Shown here piece after piece: positions 346-64,000 of a stretch of 64,000 bases of DNA (its first letter is position 1; each line of letters starts with the position of its first letter). Under the pieces are notes generated by a model that saw only the letters and a list, made by a program, of their open reading frames with translations, was not told where the DNA came from and did not search any database. The position numbers were made by a program, and so were the translations under genes. Origin of the DNA: Gordius sp. MW1 (taxonomy: Eukaryota > Nematomorpha > Gordioida > Gordea > Gordiidae); assembly GCA_964036665.1 (NCBI GenBank), contig OZ038530.1, positions 4,154,001-4,218,000 of the forward strand. Direction: 5' to 3'.

Positions 346-864
346 CTTAAAACCTCTTTGCGGAAGTCAATCGAGGATAATAGGATTCTCAAATTGGCTT
401 ACTTTTATATATTTTTTCATGCTCTTTCACATAGAATTGAAAAATCTTTTTACCTCAAAATTTTTCACATTTTTTTCTTTCAACCGTATTCATCCGATTA
501 GAGTTGTCGTTTTCAGAGGTGGTTTCCATGATAAAAAATAAAAATTTATCAGAATCAGAAAATTATTACTTTGAAATCATGATCGCATAGTGCATTTTTG
601 AAAAATTAAGCACTCACGTTGCGATACAACAAACTAATCGCAACAATAAAACGTTGTCTTTTGTCAAAATGATAGTTCTCGCAGCTTAAAACCTCTTTGC
701 GGAAGTCAATCGAGGATAATAGGATTCTCAAATTGGCTTACTTTTATATATTTTTTCATGCTCTTTCACATAGAATCGAAAAAAATAAATATTTTTACCT
801 CAAAATTTTTCACATATTTTTCTTTGAACCGTATTCATCCGATGAAAGTTGTCGTTTTCAAACG

Positions 865-3800
865 TGGTTTCTATGATCCCAAGTAAAAATTTATCAGAAT
901 CTAAAAACTATTACTTTGAAATCATGATCGCATAGTGCATTTTTGAAAAATTAAGCACTCACGTTGCGATACAACAAACTAATCGCAACAATAAAACATT
1001 GTCTTTTGTCAAAATGATAGTTCTCGCAGCTTAAAACCTCTTTTCGGAAGTCAATCGAGGATAATAGGATTCTCAAATATGCCTACTTTTATATATTTTT
1101 TTATGCTCTTTCACATAGAATCGAAAAAAAATATATTTTTACCTCAAAATTTTTCACATATATTTCTTTCAACCGTATTCATCCGATGAAAGTTGTCGTT
1201 TTCAGACGTGGTTTCCATGATAAAAAGTAAAAATTTATCAGAATCAGAAAACTATTACTTTGAAATCATGATCGCATAGTGCATTTTTGAAAAATTAAGC
1301 ACTCACGTTGCGATACAAACTAATCGCAACAATAAAACGTTTTCTTTTGTCAAAATGATAGTTCTCGCAGCTTAAAACCTCTTTTCGGAAGTAAATCGAT
1401 GATAATAGGATTCTCAAATTGGCTTACTTTTATATATTTTTTCATGCTCTTTCACATAGAATCGAAAAAAAAAATATTTTTACCTCAAAATTTTTCACAT
1501 ATTTTTCTTTGAACCGTATTCATCCGATGAAAGTTGTCGTATTAAGACGTGGGTTCTATGATAAAAAGTAAAAATTTATCAGAATCAGAGAACTATTACT
1601 TTGAAATCATGATCGCATAGACCAGTTTTCAAAAATTAAGCAATCACGTTGCGATACAACAAACTAATCGCAACAATAAAACGTTGTCTTTTGTCAAAAT
1701 GATAGTTCTCGCAGCTTAAAACCTCTTTGCGGAAGTCAATCGAGGATAATAGGATTCTCAAATTGGCTTACTTTTATATATTTTTTCATGCTCTTTCACA
1801 TAGAATCGAAAAAAATAAATATTTTTACCTCAAAATTTTTCACATATTTTTCTTTGAACCGTATTCATCCGATGAAAGTTGTCTTTTTCAGACGTGGTTT
1901 CTATGATCCCAAGTAAAAATTTATCAGAATCTGAAAACTATTACTTTGAAATCATGATCGCATAGACCAGTTTTAAAAAATTAAGCAATCACGTTGCGAT
2001 ACAACAAACTAATCGCAACAATAAAACGTTGTCTTTTGTCAAAATGATAGTTCTCGCAGTTTAAACCTCTTTTCGGAAGTCAATCGAGGATAATATTCTT
2101 AAATTGGCTTACTGTTATATATTTTTTCATGCTCTTTCACATAGAATCGAAAAAAAAAATATTTTTACCTCAAAATTTTTCACATATTTTTCTTTGAACC
2201 GTATTCATCCGATGAAAGTTGTCGTATTAAGACGTGGTTTCTATGATGAAAAGTAAAAATTTATCAGAATCAGACAACTATTACTTTGAAATCATGATCG
2301 CATAGACCAGTTTTCAAAAATTAAGCAATCACGTTGCGATACAACAAACTAATCGCAACAATAAAACGTTGTCTTTTGTCAAAATGATATTTCTCGCAGC
2401 TTAAAACCTCTTTTCGGAAGTCAATCGAGGATAATAGGATTCTCAAATTGGCTTACTTTTATATATTTTTTCATGCTCTTTCACATAGAATCGAAAAAAA
2501 AAATATTTTTACGTCAAAATTTTTCACATATTTTCCTTTCAACCGTATGCATCCGATAAAAGTTGTCGTTTTCAGACGTGGTTTCTATGATCCCAAGTAA
2601 AAATTTATCAGAATCAGAGAACTATTACTTTGAAATCATGATCGCATAGACCAGTTTTCAAAAATTAAGCAATCACGTTGCGATACAACAAACTAATCGC
2701 AACAATAAAACGTTATCATTAAAATGATAGTTCTCGCAGCTTAAAGCCTCTTTTCGGAAGTCAATCGAGGATAATAGGATTCTCAAATTGGCTTACTTTT
2801 ATATATTTTTTCATGCTCTTTCACATAGAATCGAAAAAAATAAATATTTTTACCTCAAAATTTTTCACATATTTTTCTTTGAACCGTATTCATCCGATGA
2901 AAGTTGTCGTATTCAGACGTGGTTTCCATGATAAAAAGTAAAAATTTATCAGAATCAGAGAACTATTACTTTGAAATCATGATCGCATATACCAGTTTTC
3001 AAAAATTAAGCAATCACGTTGCGATACAACAAACTAATCGCAACAATAAAACGTTGTCTTTAAAATGATATTTCTCGCAGCTTAAAACCTCTTTTCGGAA
3101 GTCAATCGAGGATAATAGGATTCTCAAATTGGCTTACTTTTATATATTTTTTCATGCTCTTTCACATAGAATTGAAAAATCTTTTTACCTCAAAATTTTT
3201 CACATTTTTTTCTTTCAACCGTATTCATCCGATTAGAGTTGTCGTTTTCAGAGGTGGTTTCTATGATCCCAAGTAAAAATTTATCAGAATCTAAAAACTA
3301 TTACTTTGAAATCATGATCGCATAGTGCATTTTTGAAAAATTAAGCACTCACGTTGCGATACAACAAACTAATCGCAACAATAAAACATTGTCTTTTGTC
3401 AAAATTATAGTTCTCGCAGCTTAAAACCTCTTTTCGGAAGTCAATCGAGGATAATAGGATTCTCAAATATGCCTACTTTTATATATTTTTTTATGCTCTT
3501 TCACATAGAATCGAAAAAAAATATATTTTTACCTCAAAATTTTTCACATATATTTCTTTCAACCGTATTCATCCGATGAAAGTTGTCGTTTTCAGACGTG
3601 GTTTCCATGATAAAAAGTAAAAATTTATCAGAATCAGAAAACTATTACTTTGAAATCATGATCGCATAGTGCATTTTTGAAAAATTAAGCACTCACGTTG
3701 CGATACAAACTAATCGCAACAATAAAACGTTTTCTTTTGTCAAAATGATAGTTCTCGCAGCTTAAAACCTCTTTTCGGAAGTAAATCGATGATAATAGGA

Positions 3801-5644
3801 TTCTCAAATTGGCTTACTTTTATATATTTTTTCATGCTCTTTCACATAGAATCGAAAAAAAAAATATTTTTACCTCAAAATTTTTCACATATTTTTCTTT
3901 GAACCGTATTCATCCGATGAAAGTTGTCGTATTAAGACGTGGGTTCTATGATAAAAAGTAAAAATTTATCAGAATCAGAGAACTATTACTTTGAAATCAT
4001 GATCGCATAGACCAGTTTTCAAAAATTAAGCAATCACGTTGCGATACAACAAACTAATCGCAACAATAAAACGTTGTCTTTTGTCAAAATGATAGTTCTC
4101 GCAGCTTAAAACCTCTTTGCGGAAGTCAATCGAGGATAATAGGATTCTCAAATTGGCTTACTTTTATATATTTTTTCATGCTCTTTCACATAGAATCGAA
4201 AAAAATAAATATTTTTACCTCAAAATTTTTCACATATTTTTCTTTGAACCGTATTCATCCGATGAAAGTTGTCTTTTTCAGACGTGGTTTCTATGATCCC
4301 AAGTAAAAATTTATCAGAATCTGAAAACTATTACTTTGAAATCATGATCGCATAGACCAGTTTTAAAAAATTAAGCAATCACGTTGCGATACAACAAACT
4401 AATCGCAACAATAAAACGTTGTCTTTTGTCAAAATGATAGTTCTCGCAGTTTAAACCTCTTTTCGGAAGTCAATCGAGGATAATATTCTTAAATTGGCTT
4501 ACTGTTATATATTTTTTCATGCTCTTTCACATAGAATCGAAAAAAAAAATATTTTTACCTCAAAATTTTTCACATATTTTTCTTTGAACCGTATTCATCC
4601 GATGAAAGTTGTCGTATTAAGACGTGGTTTCTATGATGAAAAGTAAAAATTTATCAGAATCAGACAACTATTACTTTGAAATCATGATCGCATAGACCAG
4701 TTTTCAAAAATTAAGCAATCACGTTGCGATACAACAAACTAATCGCAACAATAAAACGTTGTCTTTTGTCAAAATGATATTTCTCGCAGCTTAAAACCTC
4801 TTTTCGGAAGTCAATCGAGGATAATAGGATTCTCAAATTGGCTTACTTTTATATATTTTTTCATGCTCTTTCACATAGAATCGAAAAATAAAATATTTTT
4901 ACGTCAAAATTTTTCACATATTTTCCTTTCAACCGTATGCATCCGATAAAAGTTGTCGTTTTCAGACGTGGTTTCTATGATCCCAAGTAAAAATTTATCA
5001 GAATCAGAGAACTATTACTTTGAAATCATGATCGCATAGACCAGTTTTCAAAAATTAAGCAATCACGTTGCGATACAACAAACTAATCGCAACAATAAAA
5101 CGTTATCATTAAAATGATAGTTCTCGCAGCTTAAAGCCTCTTTTCGGAAGTCAATCGAGGATAATAGGATTCTCAAATTGGCTTACTTTTATATATTTTT
5201 TCATGCTCTTTCACATAGAATCGAAAAAAATAAATATTTTTACCTCAAAATTTTTCACATATTTTTCTTTGAACCGTATTCATCCGATGAAAGTTGTCGT
5301 ATTCAGACGTGGTTTCCATGATAAAAAGTAAAAATTTATCAGAATCAGAGAACTATTACTTTGAAATCATGATCGCATATACCAGTTTTCAAAAATTAAG
5401 CAATCACGTTGCGATACAACAAACTAATCGCAACAATAAAACGTTGTCTTTAAAATGATATTTCTCGCAGCTTAAAACCTCTTTTCGGAAGTCAATCGAG
5501 GATAATAGGATTCTCAAATTGGCTTACTTTTATATATTTTTTCATGCTCTTTCACATAGAATTGAAAAAACTTTTTACCTCAAAATTTTTCACATTTTTT
5601 TCTTTCAACCGTATTCATCCGATTAGAGTTGTCGTTTTCAGAGG
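865..5644 (+). repeat. 7-monomer higher-order repeat, 2390 bp, two copies
   Basis: Monomers at 1030, 1371, 1715, 2060, 2400, 2740 and 3081 recur at 3420, 3761, 4105, 4450, 4790, 5130 and 5471, an offset of 2390 bp throughout. Private variants are shared at this offset: 'aaatatgcctac' near 1076/3466, 'cgttttcttttg' near 1338/3728, a head reading 'gtttaaacc' at 2059/4449, and 'cgttatcattaaaatg' near 2710/5100. By eye only a few substitutions separate the copies, for example g/t at about 1015/3405 and a/t near 4889. The start is placed by the crossover inside the 3081 monomer. Outside the unit the sequence departs from the pattern. Confidence 0.9.
3081..3419 (+). repeat. Chimeric monomer at the 2390-bp duplication junction
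   Basis: The left part, up to 'gaggtggttt', matches the 346 and 5471 monomers and shares their marks ('attgaaaaa-ctttttacc', 'cacattttttt', 'gattagag', 'gagg'). From 'ctatgatccc' on it matches the tail of the 685 monomer ('gaatctaaaaac', 'cattgtc'). The switch must lie in the shared 7-bp word 'tggtttc' at 3255-3261. This is the expected signature of an unequal homologous exchange between a 5471-like and a 685-like monomer. Confidence 0.85.
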
Positions 5645-6486
5645 TGGTTTCCATGATAAAAAGTAAAAATTTATCAGAATCAGAAGACTATTACTTTGAA
5701 ATCATGATCGCATAGTGCATTTTTGAAAAATTAAGCACTCACGTTGCGATACAACAAACTAATCGCAACAATAAAACGTTGTCTTTTGTCAAAATGATAG
5801 TTCTCGCAGCTTAAAACCTCTTTTCGGAAGTAAATCGATGATAATAGGATTCTCAAATTGGCTTACTTTTATATATTTTTTCATGCTCTTTCACATAGAA
5901 TCGAAAAAAATAAATATTTTTACCTCAAAATTTTTCACATATTTTTCTTTGAACCGTATTCATCCGATGAAAGTTGTCTTTTTCAGACGTGGTTTCTATG
6001 ATAAAAAGTAAAAATTTATCAGAATAAGAACTATTACTTTGAAATCATGATCGCATATACCAGTTTTCAAAAATTAAGCAATCACGTTGCGATACAACAA
6101 ACGCAACAATAAAACGTTGTTTAAAATGATATTTATCGCAGCTTAAAACCTCTTTTCTAAAGTCAATCGAGGATAATAGGATTCTCAAATTGGCTTACTT
6201 TTTTATATTTTTTCAAGCTCTTTCACGTAGAATCGAAAAAAATAAATCTTTTTACCTCAAAATTTTTCACATTTTTTTCTTTCAACCGTATTCATCCGAT
6301 AAAAGTGTTCGTTTTCAGAGGTGGTTTAAATGATAAAAAGTAAAAACTTATCAGAATCTAAAAACTATTACTTTGAAATCATGATCGCATAGTGCATTTT
6401 TGAAAAATTAAGCACTCACGTTGCGATACAACAAACTAATCGCAACAATAAAACGTTGTCTTTTGTCAAAATGATAGTTCTCGCAG
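5645..6486 (+). repeat. Irregular satellite monomers between HOR blocks
   Basis: The end of the 5471 monomer, then monomers at 5810 (332 bp) and 6142. The 5810 copy has small deletions ('gaataagaactatt', a shortened dyad, and 'gttgtttaaaatg' in place of 'gttgtcttttgtcaaaatg') and starts like the 1371 type ('gtaaatcgatgat'). The 6142 copy carries private changes such as 'ttttctaaag', 'ttcaagctc' and 'cacgtagaatc'. They read as older, less homogenised copies at the edge of the 2390-bp HOR. No gene is present. Confidence 0.8.
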
Positions 6487-7522: not shown

Positions 7523-9906
7523 CTTAAAACCTCTTTGCGGAAGTCAATCGAGGATAATAGGATTCTCAAATTGGCTTACTTTTATATATTTTTTCATGCT
7601 CTTTCACATAGAATCGAAAAAAATAAATATTTTTACCTCAAAATTTTTCACATATTTTTCTTTGAACCGTATTCATCCGATGAAAGTTGTCGTTTTCAGA
7701 CGTGGTTTCTATGATCCCAAGTAAAAATTTATCAGAATCTAAAAACTATTACTTTGAAATCAAAATCGCATAGAGCAGTTTTCAAAAATTAAGCACTCAC
7801 GTTGCGATACAACAAACTAATCGCAACAAAAAACGTTGCTTTTGTCAAAATGATTGTTCTCGCGGCTTAAAACCTCTTTTCGGAAGTCAATCGAGGATAA
7901 TAGGATTCTCAAATTGGCCTACCTTTATATATTTTTTCATGCTCTTTCACATAAAATCGAAAAAAATAAATATTTTTACCTCAAAATTTTTCACATATTT
8001 TTCTTTGAACCGTATTCATCCGATGAAAGTTGTCGTTTTCAGACGTGGTTTCTATGATCCCAAGTAAAAATTTATCAGAATCTAAAAACTATTACTTTGA
8101 AATCAAAATCGCATAGAGCAGTTTTCAAAAATTAAGCACTCACGTTGCGATACAACAAACTAATCGCAACAATAAAACGTTGTCTTTTGTCAAAATGATA
8201 GTTCTCGCAGCTTCAAACCTCTTTTCGGAAGTCAATCGAGGATAATAGGATTCTCAAATTGGCTTACTTTTATATATTTTTTCATGCTCTTTCACATAGA
8301 ATCGAAAAAAATAAATATTTTTTTTTCAACCGTATGCATCCGATAAAAGTTGTCGTTTTCAGACGTGGTTTCCATGATAAAAAGTAAAAATTTATCAGAA
8401 TCAGAAAATTATTACTTTGAAATCATGATCGCATAGTGCATTTTTGAAAAATTAAGCACTCACGTTGCGATACAACAAACTAATCGCAACAATAAAACGT
8501 TGTCTTTTGTCAAAATGATAGTTCTCGCAGCTTAAAACCTCTTTTCGGAAGTCAATCGAGGATAATAGGATTCTCAAATTGGCTTACTTTTATATATTTT
8601 TTCATGCTCTTTCACATAGAATCGAAAAAAATAAATATTTTTATCTCAAAATTTTTCACATATTTTTCTTTGAACCGTATTCATCCGATGAAAGTTGTCG
8701 TTTTCAGACGTGGTTTCTATGATCCCAAGTAAAAATTTATCAGAATCTAAAAACTATTACTTTGAAATCAAAATCGCATAGAGCAGTTTTCAAAAATTAA
8801 GCACTCACGTTGCGATACAACAAACTAATCGCAACAATAAAACGTTGTCTTTTGTCAAAATGATAGTTCTCGCAGCTTCAAACCTCTTTTCGGAAGTCAA
8901 TCGAGGATAATAGGATTCTCAAATTGGCTTACTTTTATATATTTTTTCATGCTCTTTCACATAGAATCGAAAAAAATAAATATTTTTACCTCAAAATTTT
9001 TCACATATTTTTCTTTGAACCCTATTCATCCGATGAAAGTTGTCGTTTTCAGACGTGGTTTCTATGATCCCAAGTAAAAATTTATCAGAATCTAAAAACT
9101 ATTACTTTGAAATCAAAATCGCATAGAGCAGTTTTCAAAAATTAAGCACTCACGTTGCGATACAACAAACTAATCGCAACAAAAAACGTTGCTTTTGTCA
9201 AAATGATAGTTCTCGCGGCTTAAAACCTCTTTTCGGAAGTCAATCGAGGATAATAGGATTCTCAAATTGGCCTACCTTTATATATTTTTTCATGCTCTTT
9301 CACATAGAATCGAAAAAAATAAATATTTTTACCTCAAAATTTTTCACATATTTTTCTTTGAACCGTATTCATCCGATGAAAGTTGTCGTTTTCAGACGTG
9401 GTTTCTATGATCCCAAGTAAAAATTTATCAGAATCTAAAAACTATTACTTTGAAATCAAAATCGCATAGAGCAGTTTTCAAAAATTAAGCACTCACGTTG
9501 CGATACAACAAACTAATCGCAACAATAAAACGTTGTCTTTTGTCAAAATGATAGTTCTCGCAGCTTCAAACCTCTTTTCGGAAGTCAATCGAGGATAATA
9601 GGATTCTCAAATCGGCTTACTTTTATATATTTTTTCATGCTCTTTCACATAGAATCGAAAAAAATAAATATTTTTACCTCAAAATTTTACTCATATTTTT
9701 TTTTCAACCATATGCATCCGATGAAAGTTGTCGTTTTCAGACGTGGTTTCCATGATAAAAAGTAAAAATTTATCAGAATCAGAAAATTATTACTTTGAAA
9801 TCATGATCGCATAGTGCATTTTTGAAAAAAAGCACTCACGTTGCGATACAACAAACTAATCGCAACAATAAAACGTTGTCTTTTGTCAAAATGATAGTTC
9901 TCGCAG
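7523..9906 (+). repeat. 1353-bp repeat of satellite monomers
   Basis: Monomers at 7523, 7866 and 8211 correspond to 8876, 9219 and 9564 at an offset of 1353 bp. Shared private marks are a shortened 'acaaaaaacgttgctttt' near 7826/9179, 'ctcgcggctt' near 7859/9212, and the head 'cttcaaacc' at 8211/9564. The 8211 monomer is only 320 bp because about 25 bp are missing around 8321-8325, where the 'acctcaaaatttttcac' stretch should be. The 8531 monomer lies between the two sets and resembles 7866. Markers in this block reappear at 43681-44369 and 47818-48161. Confidence 0.75.
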
Positions 9907-21800: not shown

Positions 21801-23019
21801 AAAGTTGTCGTTTTCAGACCTAATTTCCATGATAAAAAGTAAAAATTTATCAGAATTAGAAAATTATGACTTTGAAATCATGATCGCATAGTGCATTTTT
21901 GAAAAATTAAGCACTCACGTTGCGATACAACAAACTAATCGCAACAATAAAACGTTGTCTTTTGTCAAAATGATAGTTCTCGCAGCTTAAAACCTCTTTG
22001 CGGAAGTCAATCGAAGATAATAGGATTCTCAAATTGGCTTACTTTTATATATTTTTTCATGCTCTTTCACATAGAATCGAAAAAAATAAATATTTTTACC
22101 TCAAAATTTTTCACATATTTTTCTTTCAACCGTATTCATCCGATGAAAGTTGTCGTTTTCAGACGTGGTTTCCATGATAAAAAGTAAAAATTTATCAGAA
22201 TCAGAAAACTATTACTTTGAAATCATGATCGCATAGTGCATTTTTGAAAAATTAAGCACTCACGTTGCGATACAACAAACTAATCGCAACAATAAAACGT
22301 TGTCTTTTGTCAAAATGATAGTTCTCGCAGCTTAAAACCTCTTTTCGGAAGTCAATCGAGGATAATAGGATTCTCAAATTGGCCTACCTTTATATATTTT
22401 TTCATGCTCTTTCACATAGAATCGAAAAAAAAAAATATTTTTACCTCAAAATTTTTCACATATTTTTCTTTGAACCGTATTCATCCGATGAAAGTTGTCG
22501 TTTTCAGACGTGGTTTCTATGATCCCAAGTAAAAATTTATCAGAATTTCAAAACTATTACTTTGAAATCAAAATCGCATAGAGCAGTTTTCAAAAATTAA
22601 GCACTCACGTTGCGATACAACAAACTAATCGCAACAATAAAACGTTGTCTTTTGTCAAAATGATAGTTCTCGCAGCTTAAAACCTCTTTTCGGAAGTCAA
22701 TCGAGGATAATAGGATTCTCAAATTGGCTTACTTTTATATATTTTTTCATGCTCTTTCACATAGAATCGAAAAAAATAAATATTTTTACCTCAAAATTTT
22801 ACTCATATTTTTTTTCAACCGTATGCATCCGATGAAAGTTGTCGTTTTCAGACGTGGTTTCCATGATAAAAAGTAAAAATTTATCAGAATCAGAAAATTA
22901 TTACTTTGAAATCATGATCGCATAGTGCATTTTTGAAAAATTAAGCACTCACGTTGCGATACAACAAACTAATCGCAACAATAAAACGTTGTCTTTTGTC
23001 AAAATGATAGTTCTCGCAG
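18882..23019 (+). repeat. 6-monomer higher-order repeat, 2069 bp, two copies
   Basis: Unit starts are 18882 and 20951, with monomers at 18882, 19227, 19572, 19917, 20262 and 20607. The order matches the preceding 7-mer except that monomers 3 and 4 are replaced by one chimera (19572, repeated at 21641). Both copies share newer marks absent from the 2413-bp copies, such as 'cagaatttcaaaac' (20472, 22541) and 'cagaattagaaaa' in the chimera. The 6-mer therefore arose by deletion of one monomer from the 7-mer and was then itself duplicated. Confidence 0.9.
19572..19916 (+). repeat. Chimeric monomer that converted the 7-mer to a 6-mer
   Basis: The head carries 'ttttcgg' and 'aggacaat', as in HOR monomer 3 (14746). 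The tail carries 'cctaatttcc' and 'aattatgac', as in HOR monomer 4 (15090). The exchange lies between the 'acaat' near 19605 and the 'ccta' near 19750, a stretch where the parents are nearly identical. One full monomer length is lost (2413 minus 2069 = 344 bp). The same chimera is at 21641-21985. Confidence 0.85.
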
Positions 23020-24399
23020 CTTAAAACCTCTTTGCGGAAGTCAATCGAGGATAATAGGATTCTCAAATTGGCTTACTTTTATATATTTTTTCATGCTCTT
23101 TCACATAGAATCGAAAAAAATAAATATTTTTACCTCAAAATTTTACTCATATTTTTTTTTCAACCGTATGCATCCGATGAAAGTTGTCGTTTTCAGACCT
23201 AATTTCCATGATAAAAAGTAAAAATTTATCAGAATCAGAAAATTATGACTTTGAAATCATGATCGCATAGTGCATTTTTGAAAAATTAAGCACTCACGTT
23301 GCGATACAACAAACTAATCGCAACAATAAAACGTTGTCTTTTGTCAAAATGATAGTTCTCGCAGCTTAAAACCTCTTTGCGGAAGTCAATCGAAGATAAT
23401 AGGATTCTCAAATTGGCTTACTTTTATATATTTTTTCATGCTCTTTCACATAGAATCGAAAAAAATAAATATTTTTACCTCAAAATTTTTCACATATTTT
23501 TCTTTCAACCGTATTCATCCGATGAAAGTTGTCGTTTTCAGACGTGGTTTCCATGATAAAAAGTAAAAATTTATCAGAATCAGAAAACTATTACTTTGAA
23601 ATCATGATCGCATAGTGCATTTTTGAAAAATTAAGCACTCACGTTGCGATACAACAAACTAATCGCAACAATAAAACGTTGTCTTTTGTCAAAATGATAG
23701 TTCTCGCAGCTTAAAACCTCTTTTCGGAAGTCAATCGAGGATAATAGGATTCTCAAATTGGCCTACTTTTATATATTTTTTCATGCTCTTTCACATAGAA
23801 TCGAAAAAAAATAAATATTTTTACCTCAAAATTTTTCACATATTTTTCTTTGAACCGTATTCATCCGATGAAAGTTGTCGTTTTCAGACGTCGTTTCTAT
23901 GATCCCAAGTAAAAATTTATCAGAATCTAAAAACTATTACTTTGAAACCATGATCGCATAGTGCATTTTTGAAAAATTAAGCACTCACGTTGCGATACAA
24001 CAAACTAATCGCAACAATAAAACGTTGTCTTTTGTCAAAATGATAGTTCTCGCAGCTTAAAACCTCTTTTCGGAAGTCAATCGAAGATAATAGGATTCTC
24101 AAATTGGCCTACTTTTATATATTTTTTCATGCTCTTTCACATAGAATCGAAAAAAAAAAAAATTTTACCTCAAAATTTTTCACATATTTTTCTTTCAACC
24201 GTATTCATCCGATGAAAGTTGTCGTTTTCAGACGTGGTTTCCATGATAAAAAGTAAAAATTTATCAGAATCAGAAAACTATTTCTTTGAAATCATGATCG
24301 CATAGTGCATTTTTGAAAAATTAAGCACTCACGTTGCGATACAACAAACTAATCGCAACAATAAAACGTTGTCTTTTGTCAAAATGATAGTTCGGGCAG

Positions 24400-27300
24400 C
24401 TTAAAACCTCTTTTCGGAAGTCAATCGAGGATAATAGGATTCTCAAATTGGCTTACTTTTATATATTTTTTCATGCTCTTTCACATAGAATTGAAAAAAA
24501 TAAATATTTTTACCTCAAAATTTTTCACATATTTTCCTTTCAACCGTATGCATCCGATGAAAGTTGTCGTTTTCAGACGTGGTTTCTATGATCCCAAGTA
24601 AAAATTTATCAGAATCTGAAAACTATTACTTTGAAATCATGATCGCATAGAGCCATTTTCAAAAATTAAGCACTCACGTTGCGATACAACAAACTAATTG
24701 CAACAATAAAACGTTGTCTTTTGTCAAAATGATAGTTCTCGCAGCTTAAAACCTCTTTGCGGAAGTCAATCGAGGATAATAGGATTCTCAAATTGGCTTA
24801 CTTTTATATATTTTTTCATGCTCTTTCACATAGAATCGAAAAAAATAAATATTTTTACCTCAAAATTTTTCACATATTTTTCTTTGAACCGTATTCATCC
24901 GATGAAAGTTGGCGTTTTCAGACGTCGTTTCTATGATCCCAAGTAAAAATTTATCAGAATCTAAAAACTATTACTTTGAAATCAAAATCGCATAGAGCAG
25001 TTTTCAAAAATTAAGCACTCACGTTGCGATACAACAAACTAATCGCAACAATAAAACGTTGTCTTTTGTCAAAATGATAGTTCTCGCAGCTTAAAACCTC
25101 TTTTCGGAAGTCAATCGAGGCTAATAGGATTCTCAAATTGGCTTACCTTTATATATTTTTCATGCTCTTTCACATAGAATCGAAAAAAATAAATATTTTT
25201 ACCTCAAAATTTACCTCATATTTTTTTTTCAACCGTATGCATCCGATGAAAGTTGTCGTTTTCAGACGTGGTTTCCATGATAAAAAGTAAAAATTTATCA
25301 GAATCAGAAAATTATTACTTTGAAATCATGATCGCATAGTGCATTTTTGAAAAATTAAGCACTCACGTTGCGATACAACAAACTAATCGCAACAATAAAA
25401 CATTGTCTTTTGTCAAAATGATAGTTCTCGCAGCTTAAAACCTCTTTGCGGAAGTCAATCGAGGATAATAGGATTCTCAAATTGGCTTACTTTTATATAT
25501 TTTTTCATGCTCTTTCACATAGAATCGAAAAAAATAAATATTTTTACCTCAAAATTTTTCACATATTTTCCTTTCAACCGTATGCATCCGATGAAAGTTG
25601 TCGTTTTCAGACGTGGTTTCTATGATCCCAAGTAAAAATTTATCAGAATCTGAAAACTATTACTTTGAAATCATGATCGCATAGAGTCATTTTCAAAAAT
25701 TAAGCACTCACGTTGCGATACAACAAACTAATTGCAACAATAAAACGTTGTCTTTTGTCAAAATGATAGTTCTCGCAGCTTAAAACCTCTTTGCGGAAGT
25801 CAATCGAGGATAATAGGATTCTCAAATTGGCTTACTTTTATATATTTTTTCATGCTCTTTCACATAGAATCGAAAAAAATAAATATTTTTACTTCAAAAT
25901 TTTTCACATATTTTTCTTTGAACCGTATTCATCCGATGAAAGTTGTCGTTTTCAGACGTCGTTTCTATGATCCCAAGTAAAAATTTATCAGAATCTAAAA
26001 ACTATTACTTTGAAATCATGATCGCATAGTGCATTTTTGAAAAATTAAGCACTCACGTTGCGATACAACAAACAAATCGCAACAATAAAACGTTGTCTTT
26101 TGTCAAAATGATAGTTCTCGCAGCTTAAAACCTCTTTTCAGAAGTCAATCGAGAATAATAGGATTCTTAAATTGGCCTACTTTTATATATTTTTTCATGC
26201 TCTTTCACATAGAATCGAAAAAAAAAATATTTTTACCTCAAAATTTTTCACATATTTTTCTTTCAACCGTATTCATCCGATGAAAGTTGTCGTTTTCAGA
26301 CGTGGTTTCCATGATAAAAAGTAAAAATTTATCAGAATCAGAAAACTATTTCTTTGAAATCATGATCGCATAGTGCATTTTTGAAAAATTAAGCACTCAC
26401 GTTGCGATACAACAAACTAATCGCAACAATAAAACGTTGTCTTTTGTCAAAATGATAGTTCTCGCAGCTTAAAACCTCTTTTCAGAAGTCAATCGAGAAT
26501 AATAGGATTCTTAAATTGGCCTACTTTTATATATTTTTTCATGCTCTTTCACATAGAATCGAAAAAAAAAATATTTTTACCTCAAAATTTTTCACATATT
26601 TTACTTTCAACCGTATTCATCCGATGAAAGTTGTCGTTTTCAGACGTGGTTTCCATGATAAAAAGTAAAAATTTATCAGAATCAGAAAACTATTTCTTTG
26701 AAATCATGATCGCATAGTGCATTTTTGAAAAATTAAGCACTCACGTTGCGATACAACAAACTAATCGCAACAATAAAACGTTGTCTTTTGTCAAAATGAT
26801 AGTTCTCGCAGCTTAAAACCTCTTTGCGGAAGTCAATCGAGGATAATAGGATTCTCAAATTGGCTTACTTTTATATATTTTTTCATGCTCTTTCACATAG
26901 AATCGAAAAAAATAAATATTTTTACCTCAAAATTTTACTCATATTTTATTTTCAACCGTATGCATCCGATGAAAGTTGTCGTTTTCAGACGTAATTTCCA
27001 TGATAAAAAGTAAAAATTTATCAGAATCAGAAAACTATTACTTTGAAATCATGATCGCATAGTGCATTTTTGAAAAATTAAGCACTCACGTTGCGATACA
27101 ACAAACTAATCGCAACAATAAAACATTGTCTTTTGTCAAAATGATAGTTCTCGCAGCTTAAAACCTCTTTTCAGAAGTCAATCGAGAATAATAGGATTCT
27201 TAAATTGGCCTACTTTTATATATTTTTTCATGCTCTTTCACATAGAATTGAAAAAAATAAATATTTTTACCTCAAAATTTTTCACATATTTTCCTTTCAA

Positions 27301-37094: not shown

Positions 37095-38531
37095 CAACAA
37101 ACTAATCGCAACAATAAAACGTTGTCTTTTGTCAAAATGATAGTTCTCGCAGCTTAAAACCTCTTTTCGGAAGTCAATCGAGGATAATAGAATTCTCAAA
37201 TTGGCCTACTTTTATATATTTTTTCATGCTCTTTCACATAGAATCGAAAAAAAAAATATTTTTACCTCAAAATTTTTCACATATTTTTCTTTGAACCGTA
37301 TTCATCCGATGAAAGTTGTCGTTTTCAGACGTCGTTTCTATGATCCCAAGTAAATATTTATCAGAATCAGAAAACTATTTCTTTGAAATCATGATCGCAT
37401 AGTGCATTTTTGAAAAATTAAGCACTCACGTTGCGATACAACAAACTAATCGCAACAATTAAACGTTGTCTTTTGTCAAAATGATAGTTCTCGCAGCTTA
37501 AAACCTCTTTGCGGAAGTCAATCGAGGATAATAGGATTCTCAAATTGGCTTACTTTTATATATTTTTTCATGCTCTTTCACATAGAATCGAAAAAAATTA
37601 ATATTTTTACCTCAAAATTTTTCACATATTTTTCTTTCAACCGTATTCATCCGATGAAAGTTGTCGTTTTCAGACGTGGTTTCCATGATAAAAAGTAAAA
37701 ATTTATCAGAATCAGAAAACTATTACTTTGAAATCATGATCGCATAGTGCATTTTTGAAAAATTAAGCACTCACGTTGCGATACAACAAACTAATCGCAA
37801 CAATAAAACGTTGTCTTTTGTCAAAATGATAGTTCTCGCAGCTTAAAACCTCTTTTCGGAAGTCAATCGAGGATAATAGGATTCTCAAATTGGCCTACTT
37901 TTATATATTTTTTCATGCTCTTTCACATAGAATCGAAAAAAAATAAATATTTTTACCTCAAAATTTTTCACATATTTTTCTTTGAACCGTATTCATCCGA
38001 TGAAAGTTGTCGTTTTCAGACGTCGTTTCTATGATCCCAAGTAAAAATTTATCAGAATCTAAAAACTATTACTTTGAAACCATGATCGCATAGTGCATTT
38101 TTGAAAAATTAAGCACTCACGTTGCGATACAACAAACTAATCGCAACAATAAAACGTTGTCTTTTGTCAAAATGATAGTTCTCGCAGCTTAAAACCTCTT
38201 TTCGGAAGTCAATCGAAGATAATAGGATTCTCAAATTGGCCTACTTTTATATATTTTTTCATGCTCTTTCACATAGAATCGAAAAAAAAAAAAAATTTAC
38301 CTCAAAATTTTTCACATATTTTTCTTTCAACCGTATTCATCCGATGAAAGTTGTCGTTTTCAGACGTGGTTTCCATGATAAAAAGTAAAAATTTATCAGA
38401 ATCAGAAAACTATTTCTTTGAAATCATGATCGCATAGTGCATTTTTGAAAAATTAAGCACTCACGTTGCGATACAACAAACTAATCGCAACAATAAAACG
38501 TTGTCTTTTGTCAAAATGATAGTTCTCGCAG
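37095..38531 (+). repeat. Satellite monomers linking two HOR blocks
   Basis: The monomer at 37153 combines a 'ggcctac' head with 'gtcgtttctatgatcccaagtaaatatt'. Monomers 37497, 37842 and 38188 follow 32327, 32672 and 33018 at an offset of 5170, including 'gaaaccatgatc' (near 38077), but the 'agttcgggcag' tail is replaced by the ordinary 'agttctcgcag', and the following 33362 and 33707 types are skipped. So another exchange lies at the end of the 38188 monomer. No gene is present. Confidence 0.7.
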
Positions 38532-41500
38532 CTTAAAACCTCTTTTCGGAAGTCAATCGAGGCTAATAGGATTCTCAAATTGGCTTACCTTTATATATTT
38601 TTCATGCTCTTTCACATAGAATCGAAAAAAATAAATATTTTTACCTCAAAATTTACCTCATATTTTTTTTCAACCGGATGCATCCGATGAAAGTTGTCGT
38701 TTTCAGACGTGGTTTCCATGATAAAAAGTAAAAATTTATCAGAATCAGAAAATTATTACTTTGAAATCATGATCGCATAGTGCATTTTTGAAAAATTAAG
38801 CACTCACGTTGCGATACAACAAACTAATCGCAACAATAAAACATTGTCTTTTGTCAAAATGATAGTTCTCGCAGCTTAAAACCTCTTTGCGGAAGTCAAT
38901 CGAGGATAATAGGATTCTCAAATTGGCTTACTTTTATATATTTTTTCATGCTCTTTCACATAGAATCGAAAAAAATAAATATTTTTACCTCAAAATTTTT
39001 CACATATTTTCCTTTCAACCGTATGCATCCGATGAAAGTTGTCGTTTTCAGACGTGGTTTCTATGATCCTAAGTAAAAATTTATCAGAATCTGAAAACTA
39101 TTACTTTGAAATCATGATCGCATAGAGTCATTTTCAAAAATTAAGCACTCACGTTGCGATACAACAAACTAATTGCAACAATAAAACGTTGTCTTTTGTC
39201 AAAATGATAGTTCTCGCAGCTTAAAACCTCTTTGCGGAAGTCAATCGAGGATAATAGGATTCTCAAATTGGCTTACTTTTATATATTTTTTCATGCTCTT
39301 TCACATAGAATCGAAAAAAATAAATATTTTTACTTCAAAATTTTTCACATATTTTTCTTTGAACCGTATTCATCCGATGAAAGTTGTCGTTTTCAGACGT
39401 CGTTTCTATGATCCCAAGTAAAAATTTATCAGAATCTAAAAACTATTACTTTGAAATCATGATCGCATAGTGCATTTTTGAAAAATTAAGCACTCACGTT
39501 GCGATACAACAAACTAATCGCAACAATAAAACGTTGTCTTTTGTCAAAATGATAGTTCTCGCAGCTTAAAACCTCTTTTCGGAAGTCAATCGAGAATAAT
39601 AGGATTCTTAAATTGGCCTACCGTTATATATTTTTTCATGCTCTTTCACATAGAATCGAAAAAAATAAATATTTTTACCTCAAAATTTTTCACATATTTT
39701 TCTTTGAACCGTTTTCATCCGATGAAAGTTGTCGTTTTCAGACGTCGTTTCTATGATCCCAAGTAAAAATTTATCAGAATCTAAAAACTATTACTTTGAA
39801 ATCATGATCGCATAGTGCATTTTTGAAAAATTAAGCACTCACGTTGCGATACAACAAACTAATCGCAACAATAAAACGTTGTCTTTTGTCAAAATGATAG
39901 TTCTCGCAGCTTAAAACCTCTTTTCGGAAGTCAATCGAGGATAATAGGATTCTCAAATTGGCCTACTTTTATATATTTTTTCATGCTCTTTCACATAGAA
40001 TCGAAAAAAAATAAATATTTTTACCTCAAAATTTTTCACATATTTTTCTTTGAACCGTATTCATCCGATGAAAGTTGTCGTTTTCAGACGTCGTTTCTAT
40101 GATCCCAAGTAAAAATTTATCAGAATCTAAAAACTATTACTTTGAAACCATGATCGCATAGTGCATTTTTGAAAAATTAAGCACTCACGTTGCGATACAA
40201 CAAACTAATCGCAACAATAAAACGTTGTCTTTTGTCAAAATGATAGTTCTCGCAGCTTAAAACCTCTTTTCGGAAGTCAATCGAAGATAATAGGATTCTC
40301 AAATTGGCCTACTTTTATATATTTTTTCATGCTCTTTCACATAGAATCGAAAAAAAAAAAAATTTTACCTCAAAATTTTTCACATATTTTTCTTTCAACC
40401 GTATTCATCCGATGAAAGTTGTCGTTTTCAGACGTGGTTTCCATGATAAAAAGTAAAAATTTATCAGAATCAGAAAACTATTTCTTTGAAATCATGATCG
40501 CATAGTGCATTTTTGAAAAATTAAGCACTCACGTTGCGATACAACAAACTAATCGCAACAATAAAACGTTGTCTTTTGTCAAAATGATAGTTCTCGCAGC
40601 TTAAAACCTCTTTTCGGAAGTCAATCGAGGCTAATAGGATTCTCAAATTGGCTTACCTTTATATATTTTTCATGCTCTTTCACATAGAATCGAAAAAAAT
40701 AAATATTTTTACCTCAAAATTTACCTCATATTTTTTTTCAACCGGATGCATCCGATGAAAGTTGTCGTTTTCAGACGTGGTTTCCATGATAAAAAGTAAA
40801 AATTTATCAGAATCAGAAAATTATTACTTTGAAATCATGATCGCATAGTGCATTTTTGAAAAATTAAGCACTCACGTTGCGATACAACAAACTAATCGCA
40901 ACAATAAAACATTGTCTTTTGTCAAAATGATAGTTCTCGCAGCTTAAAACCTCTTTGCGGAAGTCAATCGAGGATAATAGGATTCTCAAATTGGCTTACT
41001 TTTATATATTTTTTCATGCTCTTTCACATAGAATCGAAAAAAATAAATATTTTTACCTCAAAATTTTTCACATATTTTCCTTTCAACCGTATGCATCCGA
41101 TGAAAGTTGTCGTTTTCAGACGTGGTTTCTATGATCCTAAGTAAAAATTTATCAGAATCTGAAAACTATTACTTTGAAATCATGATCGCATAGAGTCATT
41201 TTCAAAAATTAAGCACTCACGTTGCGATACAACAAACTAATTGCAACAATAAAACGTTGTCTTTTGTCAAAATGATAGTTCTCGCAGCTTAAAACCTCTT
41301 TGCGGAAGTCAATCGAGGATAATAGGATTCTCAAATTGGCTTACTTTTATATATTTTTTCATGCTCTTTCACATAGAATCGAAAAAAATAAATATTTTTA
41401 CTTCAAAATTTTTCACATATTTTTCTTTGAACCGTATTCATCCGATGAAAGTTGTCGTTTTCAGACGTCGTTTCTATGATCCCAAGTAAAAATTTATCAG

Positions 41501-41860
41501 AATCTAAAAACTATTACTTTGAAATCATGATCGCATAGTGCATTTTTGAAAAATTAAGCACTCACGTTGCGATACAACAAACTAATCGCAACAATAAAAC
41601 GTTGTCTTTTGTCAAAATGATAGTTCTCGCAGCTTAAAACCTCTTTTCGGAAGTCAATCGAGAATAATAGGATTCTTAAATTGGCCTACCGTTATATATT
41701 TTTTCATGCTCTTTCACATAGAATCGAAAAAAATAAATATTTTTACCTCAAAATTTTTCACATATTTTTCTTTGAACCGTTTTCATCCGATGAAAGTTGT
41801 CGTTTTCAGACGTCGTTTCTATGATCCCAAGTAAAAATTTATCAGAATCTAAAAACTATT
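38532..41860 (+). repeat. 6-monomer higher-order repeat, 2068 bp, ~1.6 copies
   Basis: Monomers at 38532, 38875, 39220, 39565, 39910 and 40256 recur from 40600 at +2068. Shared private marks are 'ccggatgcatcc', 'gatcctaag' (39065/41133) and 'ggcctaccgttat' on a 'gagaataat' head (39565/41633). The 39565 type is itself chimeric, combining a 35086-like head with the 'ccgttat'/'gaaccgttttc' body of 36808. The second copy is interrupted at 41861 by a non-satellite insertion, and the satellite after it does not continue this HOR. Confidence 0.85.
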
Positions 41861-41861
41861 A
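41850..41861. repeat. Left target-site duplication (12 bp)
   Basis: 'taaaaactatta' is the satellite sequence immediately left of the insertion and is repeated exactly at 42172-42183 on the right. In uninterrupted monomers this word occurs once, followed by 'ctttgaaatc'. The split monomer is 667 bp, which is 345 plus 322, and 322 equals the 310-bp insert plus one extra 12-bp copy. The last base also fits the palindrome, so the true duplication could be 11-12 bp. Confidence 0.88.
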
Positions 41862-42171
41862 TAAATTTCATTGTATAAATACGGTGGATTTGGATTGATA
41901 GCGTAGGTAGAGGGAAATGGAACGCAATATTTCGGACACTTGTAGTCCATCTTCAGGAAAAAAAAAAAAAAAGGAGAAGATGAAGTCTCAAAAAATAAAA
42001 ATTTTTATTTTTTGAGACTTCATCTTCTCCTTTTTTTTTTTTTTTTTTCCTGAAGATGGACTACAAGTGTCCGAAATATTGCGTTCCATTTCCCTCTACC
42101 TACGCTATCAATCCAAATCCACCGTATTTATACAATGAAATTTATATAAACGGATTGAAAATTATTGATTA
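41862..42171. mobile_element. Fold-back (perfect inverted-repeat) insertion, 310 bp
   Basis: The only non-satellite DNA in the window. The left arm (to 42001) and right arm (42002-42145) are exact reverse complements meeting with no spacer at 'aaaaa|ttttt'. The sole difference found is an A run of 15 (41958-41972) opposite a T run of 18 (42031-42048). Beyond the right arm are 26 unpaired bases (42146-42171, containing 'cggattgaaaattattg') with no left counterpart. A 12-bp target-site duplication flanks the insert. It has no coding capacity, so it would be non-autonomous. Candidates are a fold-back/MITE-type DNA element, or a short retroelement fragment copied back on itself during target-primed insertion. 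The one-sided tail and long duplication fit the second at least as well. The family was not recognised. Confidence 0.85.
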
Positions 42172-42183
42172 TAAAAACTATTA
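42172..42183. repeat. Right target-site duplication (12 bp)
   Basis: Exact copy of 41850-41861, followed directly by the normal satellite continuation 'ctttgaaatcatgatcgc'. The monomer resumes in phase with no satellite bases lost. This argues for insertion into an intact monomer rather than a mis-assembly or deletion. Confidence 0.88.
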
Positions 42184-42299
42184 CTTTGAAATCATGATCG
42201 CATAGTGCATTTTTGAAAAATTAAGCACTCACGTTGCGATACAACAAACTAATCGCAACAATAAAACGTTGTCTTTTGTCAAAATGATAGTTCTCGCAG

Positions 42300-45200
42300 C
42301 TTAAAACCTCTTTTCGGAAATCAATCGAGGATAATAGGATTCTCAAATTGGCCTACCTTTATATATTTTTTCATGCTCTTTCACATAGAATCGAAAAAAA
42401 TAAATATTTTTACCTCAAAATTTTTCACATATTTTTCTTTGAACCGTATTCATCCGATGAAAGTTGTCGTTTTCAGACGTCGTTTCTATGATCCCAAGTA
42501 AAAATTTATCAGAATCTAAAAACTATTACTTTGAAATCATGATCGCATAGTGCATTTTTGAAAAATTAAGCACTCACGTTGCGATACAACAAACTAATCG
42601 CAACAATAAAACGTTGTCTTTTGTCAAAATGATAGTTCTCGCAGCTTAAAACCTCTTTTCGGAAGTCAATCGAGGATAATATGATTCTCAAATTGGCCTA
42701 CTTTTATATATTTTTTCATGCTCTTTCACATAGAATCGAAAAAAAAAAATATTTTTACCTCAATATTTTTCACATATTTTTCTTTCAACCGTATTCATCC
42801 GATGAAAGTTGTCGTTTTCAGACGTGGTTTCCATGATAAAAAGTAAAAATTTATCAGAATCAGAAAACTATTTCTTTGAAATCATGATCGCATAGTGCAT
42901 TTTTGAAAAATTAAGCACTCACGTTGCGATACAACAAACTAATCGCAACAATAAAACGTTGTCTTTTGTCAAAATGATAGTTCTCGCAGCTTAAAACCTC
43001 TTTGCGGAAGTCAATCGAGGATAATAGGATTCTCAAATTGACTTACTTTTATATATTTTTTCATGCTCTTTCACATAGAATCGAAAAAAATAAATATTTT
43101 TACCTCAAAATTTTACTCATATTTTATTTTCAACCGTATGCATCCGATGAAAGTTGTCGTTTTCAGACGTAATTTCCATGATAAAAAGTAAAAATTTATC
43201 AGAATCAGAAAACTATTACTTTGAAATCATGATCGCATAGTGCATTTTTGAAAAATTAAGCACTCACGTTGCGATACAACAAACTAATCGCAACAATAAA
43301 ACGTTGTCTTTTGTCAAAATGATAGTTCTCGCAGCTTAAAACCTCTTTTCGGAAATAAATCGATGATAATAGGATTCTCAAATTGGCTTACTTTTATATA
43401 TTTTTTCATGCTCTTTCACATAGAATCGAAAAAAATAAATATTTTTACCTCAAAATTTTTCACATATTATTCTTTGAACCGTATTCATCCGATGAAAGTT
43501 GTCGTTTTCAGACGTGGTTTCCATGATAAAAAGTAAATATTTATCAGAATCAGAAAACTATTTCTTTGAAATCATGATCGCATAGTGCATTTTTGAAAAA
43601 ATTAAGCACTCACGTTGCGATACAACAAACTAATCGCAACAATAAAACGTTGTCTTTTGTCAAAATGATAGTTCTCGCAGCTTAAAACCTCTTTTCGGAA
43701 GTCAATCGAGGATAGTAGGATTCTCAAATTGGCTTACTTTTATATATTTTTTCATGCTCTTTCACATAGAATCGAAAAAAATAAATATTTTTACCTCAAA
43801 ATTTTTCACATATTTTTCTTTGAACCGTATTCATCCGATGAAAGTTGTCGTTTTCAGACGTGGTTTCTATGATCCCAAGTAAAAATTTATCAGAATCTAA
43901 AAACTATTACTTTGAAATCAAAATCGCATAGAGCAGTTTTCAAAAATTAAGCACTCACGTTGCGATACAACAAACTAATCGCAACAAAAAAACGTTGCTT
44001 TTGTCAAAATGATAGTTCTCGCAGCTTTAAACCTCTTTTCGGAAGTCAATCGAGGATAATAGGATTCTCAAATTGGCCTACCTTTATATATTTTTTCATG
44101 CTCTTTCACATAGAATCGAAAAAAATAAATATTTTTACCTCAAAATTTTTCACATATTTTTCTTTGAACCGTATTCATCCGATGAAAGTTGTCGTTTTCA
44201 GACGTGGTTTCTATGATCCCAAGTAAAAATTTATCAGAATCTAAAAACTATTACTTTGAAATCAAAATCGCATAGAGCAGTTTTCAAAAATTAAGCACTC
44301 ACGTTGCGATACAACAAACTAATCGCAACAATAAAACGTTGTCTTTTGTCAAAATGATAGTTCTCGCAGCTTAAAACCTCTTTTCGGAAGTCAATCGAGG
44401 ATAATAGGATTCTCAAATTGGCTTACTTTTATATATTTTTTCATGCTCTTTCACATAGAATCGAAAAAAATAAATATTTTTACCTCAAAATTGTACTCAT
44501 ATTTTTTTTTCAACCGTATGCATCCGATGAAAGTTGTCGTTTTCAGACGTGGTTTCCATAATAAAAAGTAAAAATTTATCAGAATCAGAAAATTATTACT
44601 TTCAAATCATGATCGCATAGTGCATTTTTGAAAAATTAAGCACTCACGTTGCGATACAACAAACTAATCGCAACAATAAAACGTTGTCTTTTGTCAAAAT
44701 GATAGTTCTCGCAGCTTAAAACCTCTTTGCGGAAGTCAATCGAGGATAATAGGATTCTCAAATTGGCTTACTTTTATATATTTTTTCATGCTCTTTCACA
44801 TAGAATCGAAAAAAATAAATATTTTTACCTCAAAATTTTTCACATATTTTTCTTTCAACCGTATGCATCCGATGAAAGTTGTCGTTTTCAGACGTGGTTT
44901 CCATGATAAAAAGTAAAAATTTATCAGAATCAGAAAACTATTACTTTGAAATCATGATCGCATAGTGCATTTTTGAAAAATTAAGCACTCACGTTGCGAT
45001 ACAACAAACTAATCGCAACAATAAAACGTTGTCTTTTGTCAAAATGATAGTTCTCGCAGCTTAAAACCTCTTTGCGGAAGTCAGTCGAGGAATAGGATTC
45101 TCAAATTGGCTTACTTTTATATATTTTTTCATGCTCTTTCACATAGAATCGAAAAAAATAAATATTTTTACCTCAAAATTTTTCACATATTTTTCTTTGA

Positions 45201-63500: not shown

Positions 63501-64000
63501 TCGTTTCTATGATCCCAAGTAAAAATCTATCAGAATCTAAAAACTATTACTTTGAAATCATGATCGCATAGTGCATTTTTGAAAAATTAAGCACTCACGT
63601 TGCGATACAACAAACTAATCGCAACAATAAAACGTTGTCTTTTGTCAAAATGATAGTTCTCGCAGCTTAAAACCTCTTTTCGAAGTCAATCGAGGATAAT
63701 AGGATTCTCAAATTGGCCTACTTTTATATATTTTTTCATGCTCTTTCACATAGAATCGAAAAAAAAAAATATTTTTACCTCAAAATTTTTCACATATTTT
63801 TCTTTCAACCGTATTCATCCGATGAAAGTTGTCGTTTTCAGACGTGGTTTACATGATAAAAAGTAAAAATTTATCAGAATCAGAAAACTATTGCTTTGAA
63901 ACAATGATCGCATAGTGCATTTTTGAAAAATTAAGCACTCACGTTGCGATACAACAAACTAATCGCAACAATAAAACGTTGTCTTTTGTCAAAATGATAG

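Follow-up and report, generated by a model that had tools for sequence, protein, structure and literature searches.

What is the 310-bp insert that breaks one monomer of an otherwise continuous satellite array, and how did it come to be there? The window (the whole 64,000-nt stretch that was analysed) is made of a 345-bp satellite from position 1 to position 64000, reported as a single Tandem Repeats Finder row of 186 copies with 94% matches, and one of its monomers is interrupted between 41850 and 42183 by the insert at 41862-42171. The insert is flanked by a 12-bp target-site duplication (TSD), TAAAAACTATTA, whose left copy (41850-41861) and right copy (42172-42183) match exactly. Between them lie two inverted arms, one of 140 bp (41862-42001, sense on the - strand) and one of 143 bp (42002-42144, + strand), which we read as an inverted and a direct pLTR (pseudo-LTR), respectively. 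When the arms were aligned with one another, 140 of the 140 aligned bases were identical, and one 3-nt gap was left at a homopolymer tract that is A15 in the left arm (41958-41972) and T18 in the right arm (42031-42048). The arms meet head to head at 42001/42002, without a loop, at what would be the RNA 5′ end of the element; the palindromic centre is TAAAAATTTTTA, and the sequence at the centre is TTTTTATTTTTTGAG. In a scan for palindromes that covered the whole window minus 20 bp at each end, 42001/42002 was the only centre with at least 9 bp per side, and the palindrome there runs uninterrupted for 44 bp per side, up to the homopolymer difference. To the right of the right arm, 27 nt (42145-42171, + strand) form a one-sided “tail” that has no partner in the left arm, so the insert is asymmetric. 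The left junction is ambiguous by 2 nt (TA), which can be assigned to the target or to the arm. The earlier note had described a fold-back inside a satellite monomer, and these measurements bear that description out: the 12-bp duplication is exact, the centre is loop-less and the A15/T18 tract is the sole difference between the arms. The arm lengths given there, 141 and 144 bp, are within a base or two of those measured here, and the unmatched 27 nt on the right arm had been overlooked.

On the + strand, going outward from the centre, the right arm opens with a 54-nt leader, TTTTTATTTTTTGAGACTTCATCTTCTCC-T18-CCTGAAG, and continues as ATGGACTACAAGTGTCCGAAATATTGCG in an open frame. The leader of the left arm is 51 nt long, and both leaders end in CTGAAG immediately before an ATG. 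In the right arm the frame stays open from the ATG at 42056 for 116 nt, to the right junction (42056-42171, + strand), and its translation as far as that junction is MDYKCPKYCVPFPSTYAINPNPPYLYNEIYINGLKIID; in the left arm 89 nt were counted from the A of the ATG to the left junction, which by arithmetic corresponds to 41862-41950 on the - strand. Of 20,000 dinucleotide shuffles of the post-ATG sequence, 1,550 contain no stop either, and the frame runs open through the whole 170-nt arm, including the part before the ATG, with stops in the other five frames. Because shuffled sequences can be open too and the frame extends upstream, the frame taken alone is weak evidence and the ATG is only a putative start. 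Pfam returned no family for the 38-aa start of the frame.

The ATG lies within a second feature of the arms. The core of the hammerhead ribozyme is CUGANGA...GAAA with stem II, and when both strands of the window were scanned for a hammerhead-like core in which a 4-bp stem II is followed by GAAA, there were two matches, one per arm (CTGAAGA-T-GGAC..GTCC-GAAA; 41930-41956 on the - strand and 42050-42076 on the + strand). By reading, stem II of this core carries an additional U at its base, and no stem I is formed with the flanks; there are no hammerheads among the 45 matches that Rfam gave for the insert and its surroundings or among the 3 for the right arm alone. In 40,000 random 170-nt arms, drawn from the dinucleotide frequencies of the arm and scanned on both strands, the core motif occurred three times and never with the ATG in place, counts that give no clean p-value since the motif was defined post hoc. 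At the level of sequence, then, the motif is a hammerhead core without a visible stem I, and we do not claim a working ribozyme. A degenerate form of the core pattern had a single match in the viral_contigs collection, at 7579-7638 of the phage-like contig L001. That motif shares with the insert the extra U at stem II, but its flanking stems are present; Rfam scores it against Hammerhead_3 at 26 bits with an E value of 0.0011, short of the 48.5 bits set as the gathering score, and by eye it sits upstream of a small open frame.

Judged by this anatomy, the insert is very probably a Penelope-like retrotransposon (PLE), an assignment made from the arrangement of its parts rather than from sequence comparison with a PLE or with the host genome. 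Each pLTR would then be a 5′ leader followed by the opening 89-116 nt of the ORF. Among the peculiarities of PLEs are inverted pLTRs and short extensions at the 3′ end (PMC8969392, in the part available), and in rotifer Penelope copies, as far as the accessible part of PMC3846280 goes, pLTRs are direct and inverted, most commonly head to head, hold the first codons of the ORF, and show palindromes at the inverted junction. Here the arms are inverted with the ATG side outward, and each contains an ATG followed by an open frame, with the reservations about openness given above. An optional 3′ tail on one pLTR measures 31 bp in rotifer Penelope (PMC3846280, same part) and 30-40 bp in an anole PLE, in which it corresponds to the sequence between two reverse transcriptase (RT) start sites (PMC11167929); the tail of the insert, on one side only, is slightly short at 27 nt. 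The commonest RT start of the purified anole PLE is 111-118 nt into the ORF (PMC11167929), and the insert ends at +116 on the right and at +89 on the left, provided that the ATG is the true start. Rotifer Penelope TSDs are 8, 9 and 10 bp long in named copies and absent from others (PMC3846280, in the part available), the anole enzyme prefers AT-rich targets and carries out cleavage and extension on both target strands (PMC11167929), and the insert has a short TSD, of 12 bp, in an AT-rich target. On one strand this target contains, perhaps by chance, the ATT motif at which the anole enzyme cleaves (CTATTA). PLEs carry minimal type I hammerheads lacking helix III (PMC7761336, in the part available), and in the anole PLE stem II of the hammerhead marks the beginning of the ORF, C3 and G8 lying before the start codon (PMC11167929); of such a ribozyme near the start codon, the insert has a core and stem II, with no visible stem I and no Rfam match. 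The single ORF of PLEs encodes a telomerase-like RT and usually a GIY-YIG endonuclease. Of such a frame, no more than the first 116 nt could lie in the insert, and no reverse transcriptase or endonuclease sequence is present in it. No related PLE was found in the collections of phages, viral contigs and prokaryote genomes, where a eukaryotic PLE is not expected. A tRNA-derived SINE was also considered and rejected: ARAGORN predicted no tRNA gene in 41700-42400, a search that a decayed head could escape, and no tRNA family is among the Rfam matches.

The satellite preserves an uninterrupted counterpart of the target. A single copy of TAAAAACTATTA lies 2,068 bp upstream, at 39782-39793, and when the insert and one TSD copy are removed, the host monomer shows no differences from the monomer at that site. 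In the comparison of the neighbouring blocks, there is one difference upstream of the left junction (40363), the next mismatch being at 39783; on the downstream side, 148 bp pass without a difference before four appear in the next monomer and six in the one after it. The identical empty site 2,068 bp upstream argues for a recent insertion, and the absence of substitutions among the 140 aligned arm bases by itself bounds divergence at less than about 2.1% (95%). The view taken earlier, that the insertion is very recent, is thus supported by arm identity, identical TSD copies and the identical empty site in the neighbouring block. The simplest order of events is duplication of the block followed by insertion, the alternative being a later exchange between copies.

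Such copying is evident elsewhere in the array. A six-monomer block of 2,068 bp (window 37693-41864) has a tandem copy that differs from it at one position, on the border of a poly(A) tract, and from the fold-back it is 148 bp to the next mismatch downstream in this block duplication. A recent large segmental copy links 22468-27048 with sequence 8,962 bp downstream (about 26 monomers), and 1,500-bp windows within it are up to 100% identical. Other offsets that reach at least 99.8% in 1,500-bp windows are 1,718, 2,068, 2,069, 2,390, 2,413, 2,757, 5,165, 6,205 and 6,883 bp. At 847-5657, seven uneven monomers (344, 341, 345, 340, 344, 341 and 335 bp; 2,390 bp in all) recur at an offset of 2,390 bp. 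Words taken from the satellite had no match in the viral_contigs or genome_contigs collections, nor did satellite DNA match anything in the plasmid collection.

As to how the insert arose, we tentatively propose that target-primed reverse transcription from both sides produced it as a natural end product, with one region of a PLE RNA copied from two PLE start sites and the cDNAs joined 5′ to 5′ without a loop, a proposal that we hold to be plausible and slightly short of probable. In particular, the endonuclease of the element would make a staggered cut in AT-rich satellite DNA, and the freed 3′ ends (41861 on the top strand and, on the bottom strand, the position opposite 42172) would both prime reverse transcription in the 5′ portion of the ORF, at about +89 and about +116. 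Both cDNAs would extend to the 5′ end of the RNA, where we infer that an end-to-end jump or repair would unite them and leave a loop-less centre. Given the orientation of the arms, each target 3′ end continues into the antisense strand of the frame, as expected of cDNA. Priming on both sides would explain the TSD, the pair of end points and the head-to-head arrangement. Since arms copied from one RNA region would be identical at birth, nothing would be needed to keep them identical, and the earlier suggestion that they are kept so becomes superfluous. The A15/T18 difference fits two separate reverse transcriptions and would equally fit later slippage or a sequencing error. Taken as a whole, a recent body-less PLE insertion, with two pLTRs head to head, one of them tailed, inside a 12-bp TSD and with two-sided priming included, is on balance the probable account of this locus.

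A PLE could also have inserted by self-priming, whereby the cDNA would snap back at a palindrome of the pLTR 5′ end and the second arm would be copied from the first. This is the published reading for the Penelope inverted repeats with junction palindromes of Adineta vaga, for which self-priming was proposed and the origin left open in 2013 (PMC3846280, in the part available), and the centre of our insert, TAAAAATTTTTA, is likewise palindromic. Several features of the insert speak against it, however, and we consider it unlikely here. The end of the antisense arm is A-rich and unpaired: at the cDNA 3′ end of the left arm (..CTCAAAAAATAAAAA), at least the last 9 nt were unpaired in six of six folds of the last 20-140 nt, computed with RNA parameters, so a plain snap-back would not be expected to yield a loop-less centre. 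Moreover, head-to-head arms made by self-priming would require an antisense template (PMC3846280, in the part available), two separate initiations, and not snap-back, would predict a tail on one side only and close to the published size, and the lengths of the A tracts differ by 3. The modeled folds thus make plain snap-back of the cDNA appear less likely, although the true 5′ end of the element may hold extra bases.

Readings outside the PLEs are weaker still. A single fold-back event at a staggered break, involving RNA or DNA of another kind (the 5′ end of a cellular mRNA, or a polymerase-mediated templated insertion) and unrelated to PLEs, would sit well with the weak open frame and with the absence of PLE homology from the collections searched (phage, viral and prokaryote; Pfam), but it would turn the hammerhead-like core with its ATG at stem II, the +116 end and the one-sided tail into coincidences, and we regard it as distinctly improbable. 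The earlier note had raised the possibility of a new fold-back family, for which a PLE pLTR pair is the better reading. Long inverted repeats and a TSD would indeed suit a non-autonomous fold-back DNA transposon or MITE, yet the insert has neither a loop nor an internal region, and its outer ends are unequal: the left end lacks any match to the 27 nt on the right, so that the inverted repeats do not reach both outer ends as those of such an element would. We rejected this candidate, which we consider highly improbable. Perfect palindromes are also a known form of artefact, and the insert might on that ground be a product of library construction or assembly. A library fold-back should, however, have inverted the flanking satellite too, and should lack a TSD and a one-sided tail, whereas here the satellite runs in the same orientation on both sides, the TSD is exact, the tail is one-sided and the empty paralogue is intact. 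On this reasoning from the assembled sequence, an artefact is unlikely, and of all the explanations weighed it is the one to which we give least credence.

Any RNA transcribed from the site would fold into a very stable hairpin, with a computed energy of -231 kcal/mol. The hairpin also colours searches of the region. The 45 matches in Rfam, chiefly to microRNA models, all fall below gathering scores, and we read 44 of them as products of the perfect hairpin; the remaining one (41835-41861) lies in the satellite. The 3 matches of the right arm, all below gathering scores, are taken as chance. A scan for bacterial promoters and terminators, inapplicable to a eukaryote, returned six terminator-like matches that are the hairpin itself. 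Small RNAs against rotifer Penelopes have been reported (PMC3846280, in the part available). The insert has most likely been inert since it was inserted; double-stranded RNA from the hairpin, or outward transcription of the satellite, is possible, and the two facing pLTRs could send transcripts outward into both satellite strands.

In L1-type twin priming, both target ends prime on one RNA and an inversion results, with two pieces that come from different regions of the RNA, one of them ending in poly(A). We rejected this mechanism for the insert, the arms of which represent the same RNA region and include no 3′ end or poly(A) tail. Among PLEs, no body-less inverted pLTR pair is described in the parts available of PMC7761336, PMC8969392, PMC12910113, PMC3846280 and PMC11167929, which cover the literature on PLE hammerheads and PLE diversity only partly, so that this is no proof of absence. 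The main text of the 2024 in vitro paper accounts for the tail, shows priming on both strands and draws no link from these to inverted pLTRs (PMC11167929). Were two-sided priming general, it would supply the origin of the inverted pLTRs of PLEs and of the one-sided tail, in place of self-priming. The locus, which retains its two outer ends and the junction alongside an identical empty target, offers a simple case in which to test a link between two-sided priming and inverted pLTRs.

The known elements closest to the insert in anatomy are described in rotifers and in the anole. Like Pen2_Av and Pen2a_Av of Adineta vaga, as far as the available part of PMC3846280 describes them, the insert has inverted pLTRs with a putative ORF start inside the pLTR and a palindromic junction, and it shares with them a tail that is optional and confined to one pLTR and a short TSD, present in several of the rotifer copies. 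Unlike the insert, those elements also carry ORF or captured sequence, and dimensions differ: the tail is 27 bp in the insert and 31 bp in the rotifer elements, the TSD 12 bp as against 8-10 bp, and the arms 140-170 bp as against 181-218 bp. Poseidon of Anolis carolinensis (PAc) has been described in tandem arrays, whereas the insert is a body-less pair, and the PAc hammerhead cleaves in the presence of its protein, whereas the core in the insert shows no stem I and has no Rfam match (PMC11167929). On the reading proposed here, PAc nevertheless resembles the insert in having its ATG at stem II, an RT start (111-118 nt) that coincides with the +116 end, a tail that equals the gap between RT starts, priming on both strands, and an AT-rich target (PMC11167929).
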